IMG/VR virus record: IMGVR_UViG_3300021425_000065
Coordinates: 1 to 42,377 of that record
From: a virus
Length of the DNA: 42,377 nucleotides
Direction: 5' to 3' (one strand)
A program made the position numbers and the translations under genes. Under the pieces are notes generated by a model. The model saw only the letters and a list, made by a program, of their open reading frames with translations. It was not told the DNA's origin and made no database searches. Shown here piece by piece: positions 30,980 to 37,526 of the stretch (position 1 is its first letter; each line of letters begins with the position of its first letter).

Positions 30980-33900
30980 TCAGCGGTTGGTGGAATAAAT
31001 GATGCCACCGGGGCGGCTTTCCTTGAGGATCACTTGACGGACGGCGCCTTCAAGCTCGCGAGCTAGGGCTTGTCCGCCTTGACCAGTGGTTTGAGACTGT
31101 GCTTGGCCATTGTTGACGTTGACGACAATGTTAGTAGACACTTTACTACCGGCGCCACCACCAAGCTGCACGGGAATGCTTTTGCCATCAGGCAGAGGCA
31201 CTACGGCTTCGTTGTAGCGTCCTTCGCCTACGAGGCCCATAGTGGGACCAGTGACGATGCCTCCAGTGGCGAACGGTCGAACACTAGGCAAGCTTGGAAT
31301 GCCTTGAAGCATCGGAGATGCGTACACGCTTGGATCAAAACCACCGGGAACACCCTGCAACATTGGCGCCGTGTAAGGGCTAAAGCCGCTAGATGCAGCG
31401 GCTGCAGGTCCGCCCAAGAGGCCCAAGATGTTACCCCCGACCTTGAGGATGTTTGCGCGAACAGACTCCGTGATCATGCGGGCAACCATTTCTGCAAACG
31501 TGTCGCCAATGGTCTTGAAGAAGCCAGCCAACACTTCCTTGGCAGATGACGCACCTGAGATGATGCCACGGAACGCATCGCCAAAGGCAGTGCTCACGCC
31601 TTGTGCAATTTCAATGAGCTGGAAGGCAGGAGTGCCCAAATCCTTGATTGCATCCTTGGCTTCCCTAAGCGCAGTAATTAGCGCAAGTCGAGGACGCGCC
31701 GCTTCCGTTGCAAGAAACGCTCGTTCCATTTCGCTATTGTAAATCGATAGCTGAATATTGAGTTCCGCAATAGCGGCCTTGAGGCTTGCGATAGTTTTAC
31801 TGTTGGCATCTGTTGCTATAGCATGTTCCGCTTGTGTAAACTTCCCGTCTCGCAACAACTGGTCGAACGTTTTTTGCTGCTCCTCGGCTCGCTTGACGGA
31901 TTCTTGGAATCCAGCCTGCACTGCATTGGCGGCCATCGTGGCCTCCTTTTGCCTCATCAGCAGATTTACGCGATTATCAGACAACCCTTCTAATTGTGCT
32001 GCAAGTCGTGCTTCAGACAGCATGTTTTCAAGCCGCTGCTCTTCTACTGGCAAGGCTTTTTCCATTGCTTGGGCAATAATAGTCTTAGCTTCGGCTTCTA
32101 CTTTCAGAAGACTATTAAGGAGCTTTTGCTTGCTAAGTTCAAGTTCGGCTGCGGACTGAGCCTGCGTTGTCTGAAGTTCACGCCTTGCAGCTTCTTCTCT
32201 TTTTTCAATGGAAAATGCAGTGCCGGAAACGGGAGTCGCGCCAGACCGAGAGCGAGGATCTAAGTGCATTAACTGAGTGCCCCTTGGCAGCCCTCCTGTG
32301 TATCCAGCAGCTCCTCCAAGATTCTGCACGCCACTAAGCGGCATCGGCACTTTTGTGCCCTTAGGAACAAATACGTCTATAGCGCCAATACCACTAGCGT
32401 ACTTTTTGTGAGATGCGACACCTTGTCTAACTATTGCCTCAATTTCTGCACGTGACATTCCGGCTCGGAATTGACGACCACTACCGAGTTCCGTTGGAAC
32501 ACCTTGTTGAAGAAGAGCCGTAACAACATCGGCGGTATCTTGGATGAGCGCTTGGCGATTCATGTTTTGAAAATGACCATGCACCCATCCACGAGCATTG
32601 GAAGTACGTCCAGTGTCTCCGAAGATTGCGCCACCTCCCCCTGTAGTGCCTGCCGGCATAATGGCATCAGCTTGTGCGGCAGCGGCTGCTTTTGCTTGCG
32701 CAGCAACTGTTTGCACTTGAGTTTCGAGCACACTCATTTGATACCTATGCAAGGCATCTGTGACATTCTGCCGTTGCGCCGCCAAGCGCCTTTCAATGTC
32801 GGCTTGCATCTTGCTAAACCGATTGGCCCTAGCTTCCCGATAATCAAACTCGGCATCAATCATTTGCCGAGTAAAGTTTAATGTTTCCTCGGCCAAGGCC
32901 TTTCCTTTTTCAAAGTCAATTTCGTTGAGTTGATTGCGGAGTTCCGCCAATGCAAGAATGCGCTGTTGCTCTTGGCTGGCTAGCCTTTCTCTCCTGCGTC
33001 GCTCTTCCTCTGCCGCCCTGTCGGCATCGCCCTTGGCTTTTCCTGCATCCACTCCGGCGCTCGGCACGGCGCCTCCTTGCGGACCAAGACCAGTGCCAAA
33101 CGATCGCGGAACAAACTCGCCAAACAGGCTCCTATTCAGCTCGTTAATGCGCTGCTGTCTCGTCCTTGATCTTTGATTTGAGCCTTGATCACGCGCTCTT
33201 TCTACGGCAAGCGCTTCTTGATATGCGGCAGCGCCTACCAATGCGCGTTGAATCGGGTTTGGATAGAGAGTTTCTACAGCCCTTTGCGCACGTTGTTCAG
33301 GCGTGCCAGCCACTTGCGCCGATTCCTCGGCAAGTCTCGACAAGGCATTGATGCCTCTGGCAAAGTTGTCAAAGATATAAGAAAAGAAGCCGCTAAAAAG
33401 TGGAGTGACGGCCTTGATAAGCCTGTCAAAAATGTTGTAAAGATCTTGCGCAAATACCGTAAAACTAGAAATTGTATTCTTGATGCCTTTATCGTTAGCA
33501 AGCAGAAAGTTTGCAAGATCCGCTGCATATGCTTGGAAGCCCGCGCCCGTCCTCTGGAAGAATCCTCCATAGGACAGTGCAAGTGCGTTAAGTGCCACTT
33601 GCAGCCTCGGCCCAGCGTTCTCGGGAGCCTTGGCGAGAATGTCGGCAGTGGTTCCGTAGCGCTTATTTAGCTCCTCAAGAAACGTAATAAACTCTTGCAA
33701 GCCAACTTTACCTTCAGACAAAAGTTTGTCTACTTCTTGAGGAGTTTTGCCAAGGGATTGGGCAAAGATGGTAAAAGCGCCTGGCAATCTCTCGCCAATT
33801 TGTTGCCTCAATTCCTCCGCGCTCACTTTGCCCTTGCTGAACACCTGCGCCGTCGCCCTCAATGCTGAGTTCAAGTCTTCAGTGTTGCCGCCAGTGGCAA

Positions 33901-34783
33901 TGATTGCCGAAGAAATGCCATTGAATGCCTTGGCGGTGGTTGCCGTATCAAAGCCCGCGCCGCGAACGCTGGCCTGAAGACGAGCAAATTGCCTTACGGA
34001 ATCACTAAGCGGCAGTAAGTATTTTTGCCCAGCTTCGGTGGCGGCTTGTAGTGCAACTGTGTAATCTTGCTGGTCATTGCTAACACCAGCAAGCGCAATT
34101 TTGGCTTTATTGGTTTCAGAAACAACGGTGGCAATGGCGGCACCATATTGACCGAGATTATCTGTGAGCTGGCCAATAGCGGCGCCAGCAAATGCCCCAG
34201 GCACACCACCTGCCAATCCGCCCGCAATACCGCCCAACGCGCTGCCAACGCCACCACCAAGGCCTCCGCCATAAAGGAAAGCGCCACCAGCAGCACCAGC
34301 CCTTTGACTGATATTCAAAGGCTTTCGATTGATCTTCTCAATAGACAGTTCTACTTGTCTGATTTCCTTGTTAAGCGCTCGCCATTCTTGATTGTTTGGA
34401 GCAATGTCACGTGCTCTAGTCTTGAGCAGCGAAAGCTGCCCTTCAAGGCGCGACAAGCTCCCTGGAGCCATTGCACCGAGGCTTTCAGTGATTCTGATGC
34501 TCTTGGCAACACTTTGCGCTCTCTGCAAATCAGAGCTAACTCTTGCAACTTGCTGTTGAAGTTGAATCCATGCAGCAGTATTTGGAGCAATGTTTTTAGC
34601 TCGGTCTTCAAGTCTTCCTAGCTGGCGTTCCATTTGGGCAACAGTGCCCATGTTGGTCTGAGTGAGATTAACCCGCACTCGACTGCCAACATTAGCAACC
34701 CTTGCTATTTCCCGCTCAAGATTCCTAAGATCTTGCGTAACGCGAGATGCGTTAGTAGAAAAGTCAATCGTATATTGAGCCAT
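30980..34783 (-). CDS. Tape measure protein with degenerate M23-like segment
   Basis: A 1267-residue protein. The N-terminal coiled coil (1-150, with repeated 'NTAAWIQLQQQVARV' and 'NQEWRALNKEI' units) leads to a Gly/Ala-rich hydrophobic stretch (165-220). Residues about 225-385 match the TMP N-terminal domain ('SDSVRQFARLQASVRGAGFD', 'GKVSAEELRQQIGERLPGAF'). Charged helices fill 560-720. Around 725-850 'HGHFQN', 'IGAIDVFVPKGTKVPMPLSG' and 'QLMHLDP' resemble an M23 peptidase-like fold missing parts of its metal site. The end, 'FATGGIVTGPTMGLVGEGRY', is a typical TMP motif. At about 0.15 nm per residue the tail would be near 190 nm; this is a rule-of-thumb estimate. Confidence 0.93.
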   Translation of the reverse strand: MAQYTIDFSTNASRVTQDLRNLEREIARVANVGSRVRVNLTQTNMGTVAQMERQLGRLEDRAKNIAPNTAAWIQLQQQVARVSSDLQRAQSVAKSIRITESLGAMAPGSLSRLEGQLSLLKTRARDIAPNNQEWRALNKEIRQVELSIEKINRKPLNISQRAGAAGGAFLYGGGLGGGVGSALGGIAGGLAGGVPGAFAGAAIGQLTDNLGQYGAAIATVVSETNKAKIALAGVSNDQQDYTVALQAATEAGQKYLLPLSDSVRQFARLQASVRGAGFDTATTAKAFNGISSAIIATGGNTEDLNSALRATAQVFSKGKVSAEELRQQIGERLPGAFTIFAQSLGKTPQEVDKLLSEGKVGLQEFITFLEELNKRYGTTADILAKAPENAGPRLQVALNALALSYGGFFQRTGAGFQAYAADLANFLLANDKGIKNTISSFTVFAQDLYNIFDRLIKAVTPLFSGFFSYIFDNFARGINALSRLAEESAQVAGTPEQRAQRAVETLYPNPIQRALVGAAAYQEALAVERARDQGSNQRSRTRQQRINELNRSLFGEFVPRSFGTGLGPQGGAVPSAGVDAGKAKGDADRAAEEERRRRERLASQEQQRILALAELRNQLNEIDFEKGKALAEETLNFTRQMIDAEFDYREARANRFSKMQADIERRLAAQRQNVTDALHRYQMSVLETQVQTVAAQAKAAAAAQADAIMPAGTTGGGGAIFGDTGRTSNARGWVHGHFQNMNRQALIQDTADVVTALLQQGVPTELGSGRQFRAGMSRAEIEAIVRQGVASHKKYASGIGAIDVFVPKGTKVPMPLSGVQNLGGAAGYTGGLPRGTQLMHLDPRSRSGATPVSGTAFSIEKREEAARRELQTTQAQSAAELELSKQKLLNSLLKVEAEAKTIIAQAMEKALPVEEQRLENMLSEARLAAQLEGLSDNRVNLLMRQKEATMAANAVQAGFQESVKRAEEQQKTFDQLLRDGKFTQAEHAIATDANSKTIASLKAAIAELNIQLSIYNSEMERAFLATEAARPRLALITALREAKDAIKDLGTPAFQLIEIAQGVSTAFGDAFRGIISGASSAKEVLAGFFKTIGDTFAEMVARMITESVRANILKVGGNILGLLGGPAAAASSGFSPYTAPMLQGVPGGFDPSVYASPMLQGIPSLPSVRPFATGGIVTGPTMGLVGEGRYNEAVVPLPDGKSIPVQLGGGAGSKVSTNIVVNVNNGQAQSQTTGQGGQALARELEGAVRQVILKESRPGGIIYSTNR

Positions 34784-34786
34784 GTT

Positions 34787-35305
34787 TTACTTCCTCAGCG
34801 AAGCGCCAATGTCCTGAAGAGCATCATCAATGTCACGCAGCGTATTTTCTGTCCACGGTCGAGCAGGCATCGCTACGCCTCCTTTTGCCGTATAGCCATC
34901 ATGCACGCCTTGCGCATATTCTGCTGTCCAAGTGAACTCTTGCGATGATCTTCCCGTGACAGTACGCTGCTTACTTTGAAGCAAAGTGCCCATATCAACA
35001 ATGTCTCGCGGCTCTGTCACCACTTGTCCGTTCTTTCTGCGAGTGATGCCATCCGGCCCTTTCCATCCCCATTGCTCATCTGTCATCTGCTGGTCAAAAT
35101 CAGCATCTGCCCAATCCATCGCCGCTTCAAAAATGCGACCGTTGATACCATAGAGCTTCTTTAATGGAAGATCATCAGTGTTCCTAATTTTGATGCCAGC
35201 AAACTTTTGAAGCCTATTGTTGATTCCAGAAGCAAAGTCAAGCAGTTTTTGCATGGCACTATCCGCCGCAAAGGCATTGCTCTCAAAGCGAACCGTATAG
35301 GCCAT
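34787..35305 (-). CDS. HK97 gp10-like virion morphogenesis protein
   Basis: A 172-residue protein with 'VDMGTLLQSK', 'AEYAQGVHDGYTAKGG' and 'AMPARPWTENTLRDIDDAL', which match the 'D-x-G-x-L..S....YA..vh.G......ARPf' pattern of gp10-like phage proteins (minor head-tail/tail completion). These usually lie before the tail tube gene. Here it lies between the tail chaperone G-T and the tape measure, an unusual place. It may have moved, or act in tape measure/tube assembly instead. Confidence 0.72.
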   Translation of the reverse strand: MAYTVRFESNAFAADSAMQKLLDFASGINNRLQKFAGIKIRNTDDLPLKKLYGINGRIFEAAMDWADADFDQQMTDEQWGWKGPDGITRRKNGQVVTEPRDIVDMGTLLQSKQRTVTGRSSQEFTWTAEYAQGVHDGYTAKGGVAMPARPWTENTLRDIDDALQDIGASLRK

Positions 35306-35332: not shown

Positions 35333-36273
35333 TTAGGCCAGTTCAGCGCCAATCATGCCTACAATCGCAGGCGGAAGCTTATGATGCTTTACTGCCCACT
35401 TAATGGCCGCCGCTGTCGATTCCTTAAGTCCTTCAGACTGAGCAGTTTTCTCAAACGGCAAGAACGATTCCAGCGTCACGGAAGCCTTCTTCCCTCCTAG
35501 TGCGCCATAAACTAGGCAAGCAAGCTTCGCTACTGCCACGCTATTAGCATTGGTGCTTTGCTGCCTTTGCTCCGCAAGCTCTTCACTAATTGCCCGCAGC
35601 AGCTTAATCGGCACCTTATGCAGCCGCTCAGCATGGAACAATGGGTCGGTGATGCCAAGGTGGATGAGCTGCGCATAAAGCACTGCCCAGTCCGTAGAGC
35701 TATTCAGTGCACGTTCGCATGATTCCTCCAAGCGCACCAGGGCACTTACTTTGGGCCGTCTTCCTCCTCCTCCCCTTCCTCTTCTTGCGCCTGATCTTCC
35801 ACACTGTCTTCCTTCGCCATAAACCGCTCCACCTCTGCAATCATTGCAGCAGTGAGCTTTTGCGTGTCTTCCTTCGACCAATCTTCAGTGGCGGTCCATT
35901 TCTTGCCATCCAGCACTTCCCCTCGGTTCTTAAAGAACAGCGTCATCAGTTCTTCCGTTTGTTCTTGAGACGATGGGGAAAGAGCCATTAGGCGGTCCAT
36001 TTCCTCGCTGAACTCAGCAAACAACTCCCCTCGTTCTTCATCGCCGCCTTGCAGCATGGCAAACGCATCGTCCTCGCTAATGTCCTTAGCTTTTGCAATC
36101 TTTCGTGCCAGCCGCACCACTTCCATCGTAAATTGAGCCCGCTTCTTGCTTTGCTTCTCCCTGCACCACACTTCCTCCGCAAGCCAGCTTCCATAATGCC
36201 GCAGACGCAGCTTGGCATTCAGCGGGAAGTATTCAGGGCTGCCAATCAGGAAAAAGTCGGAATACTTGCTCAT
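35333..36273 (-). CDS. Frameshifted tail assembly chaperone G-T (fusion product)
   Basis: A -1 slip at the slippery site 35749-35755 joins the 175-residue G frame to a second frame of 138 codons ending at 35333, giving a predicted 313-residue fusion. The T part begins 'PKVSALVRLEESCERALN', is helical and ends 'LPPAIVGMIGAELA'; its frame has no good start of its own, and the sequence upstream in that frame is Arg/Gly-rich noise. In lambda, G-T joins the tape measure to tail tube subunits and is made by -1 slipping on GGGAAAG. The order V-G-GT-H is preserved here, except for the gp10-like gene before H. Confidence 0.88.
35746..36273 (-). CDS. Tail assembly chaperone G (unshifted product)
   Basis: A 175-residue protein (lambda G: 140) ending in a strongly acidic 'EEEGEEEEDGPK'. 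Helical body: 'LRLRHYGSWLAEEVW', 'AQFTMEVVRLARKIAK', 'DDAFAMLQGGDEER'. The small protein at 36279 lies just upstream. G is thought to coat the tape measure together with G-T. Its stop codon immediately follows the slippery sequence, so most ribosomes make this product and a minor fraction make the fusion. Confidence 0.85.
   Translation of the reverse strand: MSKYSDFFLIGSPEYFPLNAKLRLRHYGSWLAEEVWCREKQSKKRAQFTMEVVRLARKIAKAKDISEDDAFAMLQGGDEERGELFAEFSEEMDRLMALSPSSQEQTEELMTLFFKNRGEVLDGKKWTATEDWSKEDTQKLTAAMIAEVERFMAKEDSVEDQAQEEEGEEEEDGPK
35749..35755 (-). promoter_or_regulatory. Programmed -1 frameshift site C CCA AAG
   Basis: Read on the minus strand, C CCA AAG matches X XXY YYZ and occupies the last codons of G, directly before TAA. 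The -1 reading (CCC AAA GTA AGT) enters the long T frame. A purine-rich GGGGAGGAGGAGG lies about 8 bases upstream and could act as an internal ribosome-stimulating site as in dnaX. I could not see a clear stem-loop downstream. Confidence 0.85.
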
Positions 36274-36950: not shown

Positions 36951-37526
36951 TCAGGAGTTAGGGTCGGTGGGCAGCTTGGAAGTGCCGCTAATCGTAATCT
37001 GACCAGCAGCCACAGGGCCACGGCTCATAAGATCAAACGTCACTTGCACCAGATTGTCCGCCGGATAGGCTTCACTGTAGTTCATCACGTTGGCAGCAAA
37101 GGCTGTCGTGTCATAAGTGAAGGAACCACCAATCAGCTTATACACTTGCACGAACACTTCATAGTTCTTGTCGTAGCGGCTCTTCAGAATCACGTCCATG
37201 GCTTCGTCAAAGCCAGTGGCCTGCACCGTATCGCCATCTACGTCACGCTGGAAGTAGGAGGTGATGGAAGCTTGGGCGCGAGTGGTGACAACCACGCTAT
37301 CGGCAAATCCGCCGTTGCCAAGCAGGTAGTATTCTTGCTCACCATCATTGATGGCCACCGTGGCGTCAGTGACGCCAGCAAGGAAATACATGGTCGGGGC
37401 GCCGGAAACCGTCACGTTGCCACCAGCGCTGCTAACGCGAGGACGAGCGGCACCAGAAACCGAGCCCACATAGATGATGGTGTCTTGGCTCTTGATGAGC
37501 TGAGTGGGATGCTGAATGTAGGACAT
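36951..37526 (-). CDS. Major tail tube protein
   Basis: A 191-residue protein: 'TIIYVGSVSGAARPRVSSAG', 'MYFLAGVTDATVAINDGEQE', 'ARAQASITSYFQRDVDGDT' style strand pairs and 'VQVTFDLMSRGPVAAG' near the end. The beta-rich fold, size and place between head-tail connectors and tail chaperones identify the tube subunit, which polymerises around the tape measure. Start ATG 37526 with GGAGA-like purines upstream. Confidence 0.85.
   Translation of the reverse strand: MSYIQHPTQLIKSQDTIIYVGSVSGAARPRVSSAGGNVTVSGAPTMYFLAGVTDATVAINDGEQEYYLLGNGGFADSVVVTTRAQASITSYFQRDVDGDTVQATGFDEAMDVILKSRYDKNYEVFVQVYKLIGGSFTYDTTAFAANVMNYSEAYPADNLVQVTFDLMSRGPVAAGQITISGTSKLPTDPNS

Follow-up and report, generated by a model that had tools for sequence, protein, structure and literature searches.

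From one gene, the virus analysed here in all probability produces a short and a longer form of a tail assembly chaperone by a programmed -1 ribosomal frameshift like that of lambda G/GT, as the sequence and its evolution indicate. The window, by which we mean the whole stretch of DNA that was analysed, spans the 42,377 bases of an IMG/VR virus record and may be a fragment. Two overlapping frames, a slippery heptamer and its conservation, selection upstream of this heptamer and an excess of RNA structure downstream of it can all be read from the sequence and from the evolution of its relatives.

The window carries a siphovirus structural module (PHROGs and Pfam searches) with head protease, major capsid protein, major tail protein, the G/T pair, tape measure protein, minor tail proteins and the central tail fibre J. 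With 89% identity, the major capsid protein is close to its counterpart in Synechococcus phage S-CBS4; a cyanobacterial host is therefore likely, and the virus is a relative of phages of marine cyanobacteria. The window features given below by position lie on the minus strand. The G/T pair is placed as in lambda-type chaperones, between the gene for the major tail protein (gene V equivalent, 36951..37526; PHROG 1407, E 6e-4) and that for the tape measure protein (gene H equivalent, 30980..34783; PHROG 2335, E 8e-41; Pfam TMP_3, 1.5e-24).

A further gene of 172 aa with weak likeness to a tail completion or neck protein (34787-35305) separates T from the tape measure gene. It occupies this interval in 87 of the 88 loci of the window's clade, whereas in the S-CBS4 clade no gene intervenes there and a homolog is found upstream of G in 42 loci. 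By these positions, the 172-aa gene has changed place within the tail module.

The slippery site and its conservation

The equivalent of gene G (35746..36273) encodes a predicted short tail assembly chaperone of 175 aa, whose acidic C-terminal tail ends with ..EEEEDGPK before the TAA stop (3' codons GAG GAG GAA GAC GGC CCA AAG TAA). Directly 5' of this stop lies the heptamer C_CCA_AAG (35749..35755) in a phase that fits a simultaneous -1 slip, exactly where the first-pass annotation had placed it. The slip would yield ..DGPK|VSALVR.. and enter the T frame (35333..35749), which reads VSALVRLEESCERALNSSTDW after the slip point and runs, again as annotated, through 138 codons to a TAA at 35335..35333; its product, a conserved protein, is proposed to be made only as a GT fusion. 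Among 22 minus-strand genes checked, this is the only efficient in-phase heptamer. CCCAAAG is not abundant in the window (2 seen versus 7.4 expected), and its scarcity on both strands perhaps reflects avoidance of a shift-prone heptamer.

Queries with G and T, with alignments of each and with the G of S-CBS4 retrieved 153 distinct loci that hold both halves; IMG/VR is their source, apart from a single MAG contig and an isolate, Synechococcus phage S-CBS4. Gene G is conserved in all of them, and at each of the 153 T lies in the -1 frame relative to G, overlaps its 3' end, lacks a conserved start and is preceded by an in-phase X_XXY_YYZ heptamer within the overlap; in the body of G of the relatives, such heptamers occur at 0.0031 per codon. 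Furthermore, the 360 nt after the G stop are open in the -1 frame in 151 of 151 loci, and in none of these are the other two frames open. The P values given below overstate independence, as the loci are related.

The heptamers fall into several types. The window's clade (88 loci) has CCCAAAG in 35, AAAAAAC in 40, CCCAAAA in 12 and AAAAAAA in a single locus, and the S-CBS4 clade (65 loci) has AAAAAAA in 58 and AAAAAAG in 7. S-CBS4 shares 40% identity with the window in G and 28% in T. Its record annotates the region as separate short and unrelated hypothetical proteins, and the relation between the frames was missed. One G/T pair of the family (L119, RGTE01000002.1) resides on a contig of 27.9 kb that was assigned to a Verrucomicrobia MAG, possibly a phage contig that was binned wrongly, possibly a hint of more diverse hosts.

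Conservation of the heptamer extends to codon choice. In 35 representatives of the CCC type (<92% nucleotide identity), the codon holding the first C of the heptamer ends in C without exception, despite encoding different residues (GGC, GCC, GAC, GTC, TCC, AGC); measured against the group's own codon usage this gives a log10P of -18.4, a value inflated by the relatedness of the loci. Likewise, the proline of the heptamer is CCA in 35/35 (log10P -18.1, with the same inflation). All 32 representatives of the AAAAAAC type have AAC as the last codon, although AAT accounts for 70% of Asn codons.

Selection on the flanks of the heptamer

Upstream of the heptamer by 8-18 nt lies the GA-rich run GGAGGAGGAGG (35763..35773), a putative Shine-Dalgarno-like stimulator. 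Since an acidic tail alone could give GA-rich DNA, we compared the relatives with synonymous shuffles of their own codons, searching 6-17 nt upstream of the heptamer, a range taken from PMC4066793. The longest Shine-Dalgarno match had a mean length of 5.01 versus 3.95 +/- 0.18 in the shuffles, none of 200 reaching the observed value, and the S-CBS4 clade gave 5.94 versus 3.87 +/- 0.34 (0/200); at seven control positions in G the same test was flat or negative (z -2.7 to 0). The choice of glutamate codons is also specific to position: Glu at -14..-12 is written GAG in 36 of 47 cases (23/25 in the two CCC types) against a fraction of 0.37 in the gene body, the AAAAAAC type has its GAG codon at -11..-9 (24/26), and the two codons adjoining the heptamer are mostly GAA where they encode Glu. 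The codon-preserving shuffles together with the control sites rule out that the run is a mere by-product of a poly-Glu tail, and by these codon comparisons the upstream element is under selection at synonymous sites. A Shine-Dalgarno-like sequence upstream of the heptamer is thus conserved beyond the needs of the protein, which supports the likeness to the stimulator of E. coli dnaX that had been drawn from the sequence of the window.

On the 3' side, the mRNA at 35660..35743 is a possible structural stimulator. Its predicted fold in the window (-27.9 kcal/mol) is unexceptional on its own, with a z of -0.87; across the relatives, RNA 3' of the slip site is significantly more stable than synonymous codon shuffles. 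The excess is largest in the AAAAAAC members (-14.0 versus -7.4 kcal/mol in shuffles, 18.8 sd of the shuffled means), where it comes from a hairpin, CGGCTTGC-nnn-GCAAGCCG, that starts 8 nt after the heptamer and is near-invariant among A_AAA_AAC loci (e.g. L025:3519-3578, L029 and L080). Covariation gave no support for this hairpin beyond its conservation, and the case for it therefore comes only from the energy tests of codon choice. The CCC members show less of an excess (at most -2.6 kcal/mol, 7.7 sd), and as other positions, mostly within about 3 sd, reach -6 sd at an offset of 40 codons, this weaker signal needs to be read with caution.

Other routes into the T frame

Could translation of T instead start anew, by reinitiation or by coupling to the G stop, so that T is a gene of its own and the heptamer incidental? 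In the window, the -1 frame stays open over 136 nt upstream of the G stop; a TTG at 35881 and, 12 nt beyond the slip point, a GTG could serve as starts, and a Shine-Dalgarno-like run shortly precedes the stop. The first-pass claim that the T frame lacks its own start is thus loosely put; in many relatives, however, T has no ATG, GTG or TTG for >80 nt, and in two of them (L015 and S-CBS4) none within the first 150 nt, so no T start is conserved and an independent start as a conserved mechanism is ruled out. Furthermore, in S-CBS4-clade loci the heptamer and the Shine-Dalgarno-like element lie 31-46 nt before the G stop, which means that the element tracks the heptamer and not the stop, and the codons of the heptamer are invariant against codon usage. 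We consider reinitiation very unlikely.

The change of frame might also be made by the polymerase rather than the ribosome, as A runs can promote polymerase slippage and the sites of the S-CBS4 clade are mostly A7. However, the longest run in the window's CCCAAAG is three, and members with C_CCA_AAR, A_AAA_AAC and A_AAA_AAG alike keep the X_XXY_YYZ phasing and a Shine-Dalgarno-like element at ribosomal spacing, which leaves transcriptional slippage the slimmest of chances. An apparent break in one truly continuous frame, owed to faulty sequencing or assembly or to decay into a pseudogene, has nothing in its favour and a negligible probability; it is refuted by the -1 relation common to 153 distinct loci, an isolate among them. 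Continuous-frame homologs, raised beforehand as an observation that would speak against a frameshift, were found at 0 of the 153.

Under a programmed ribosomal frameshift, most ribosomes would terminate at the TAA and release the 175-aa G, while a minority would arrive at C_CCA_AAG with their anti-Shine-Dalgarno paired to the GA-rich run that lies 8-18 nt before it. Both tRNAs, for Pro and for Lys, would then re-pair from CCA-AAG to CCC-AAA, and translation of 138 further codons would give GT, a minor product of about 313 aa. In the lambda-type class, G is abundant and GT minor, and the virion contains neither; the tape measure protein is bound by G and the tail tube by T. By analogy, a coat of many G and few GT would form on the tape measure protein and bring in the tail tube subunit, with the slip frequency setting their ratio. 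We infer the slippage and its frequency from the features above, and a chaperone role of G and GT is suggested by gene order and architecture, not by homology.

Known frameshift systems and the exchange of slippery sites

In lambda, the -1 frameshift of G/GT occurs at G_GGA_AAG (Levin 1993; Xu 2004 and 2013; reviewed in PMC5009743), and we confirmed GGGAAAG in the lambda sequence (L197). The window shares with lambda the overlapping frames between the tail tube and tape measure genes, a T in the -1 frame without a conserved start, and an X_XXY_YYZ heptamer at the 3' end of G. It differs in that the heptamer is CCCAAAG and directly adjoins the stop, whereas in lambda the stop follows 15 nt later; in that the window's family has a Shine-Dalgarno-like upstream element and probably also downstream structure under selection; and in that the additional 172-aa gene sets T apart from the tape measure gene. 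The lambda-type reading of the first-pass annotation is backed by the 153 relatives and the codon-level tests, though not by homology to lambda gene G: hhalign of G and T to their lambda counterparts detected no sequence or profile similarity, and neither protein matched a named chaperone family in Pfam or PHROGs. Known G/T families have little sequence in common, and these negative results therefore bear on homology and not on the mechanism.

An AlphaFold2 (AF2) model of G (pLDDT 78) had no match in the PDB, and the predicted structure of T was too poor for use. In BFVD, the predicted fold of G matched the unnamed viral proteins A0A346A5Z9 (E 3.9e-6) and F4YCJ6 (E 5.8e-4), matches that could link the G family to other chaperones.

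E. coli dnaX slips at A_AAA_AAG with an upstream Shine-Dalgarno and a downstream hairpin (PMC5009743). Here too, a Shine-Dalgarno-like element stands shortly upstream of a heptamer ending in A_AAG, and the A_AAA_AAC subgroup has a hairpin just downstream; the proteins, however, are unrelated, and the slip gives a shorter product in dnaX, whereas here it would give a longer, minor one. In haloarchaeal viruses, A_AAA_AAC is recorded in g-t genes (PMC5009743), and Hardycor1 uses G_GGA_AAT (PMC7911831). These are likewise tail chaperone pairs in which bacterial-type and A_AAC-type heptamers are mixed among relatives, but their hosts are archaeal. The annotated -1 frameshift of HK97 gp13/14 does not use CCCAAAG.

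The heptamer itself had at first been taken as undescribed, which is not the case: C_CC.A_AA.G was the most efficient of 64 heptamers measured in E. coli, with up to 54% frameshifting in combination with the IS3 pseudoknot (PMC4066793), and is reviewed as highly shift-prone (PMC5009743). We found no report of CCCAAAG in a phage tail chaperone in the literature searched, the tail frameshift survey of Xu et al. 2004 being outside its scope. Frameshifted tail chaperones are a known and widespread class, and the CCCAAAG site is not a new kind. New are a protein family without recognised chaperone match, unannotated in S-CBS4, and the switching among C_CCA_AAR, A_AAA_AAC and A_AAA_AAR sites.

This switching was traced on a tree of G+T from 69 representatives with the slip-site columns removed, on which the placing of the distant S-CBS4 row is unsure. 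The tree requires 6 changes of heptamer type. C_CCA_AAR and A_AAA_AAC fall on opposite sides of one branch, with one AAAAAAA locus nested on the C side, and the seventh base switches several times between G and A. It is a tentative reading, to which we give slightly less than an even chance, that an orthologous gene pair swapped its site among the strong bacterial C_CCA_AAR, A_AAA_AAC, which is weak in E. coli, and A_AAA_AAR, and that the stimulators changed as well, the A_AAA_AAC group having a strong hairpin directly downstream and its Shine-Dalgarno-like codon 3 nt closer. The less expected part of it is that heptamer classes are exchanged within one gene pair together with the stimulators; if this is true, phages would offset the strength of the slippery site by that of the stimulators and so hold G:GT steady.

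A known class of frameshifts thereby gains a putative tail chaperone pair that is unannotated and widespread in S-CBS4-like cyanophages and their relatives. Moreover, these relatives constitute a natural series, in which the same gene is found with several slippery sites and matching changes of the stimulators. On such a series it can be tested by what means phages hold a protein ratio steady, and how A_AAA_AAC is read in bacterial hosts besides E. coli.
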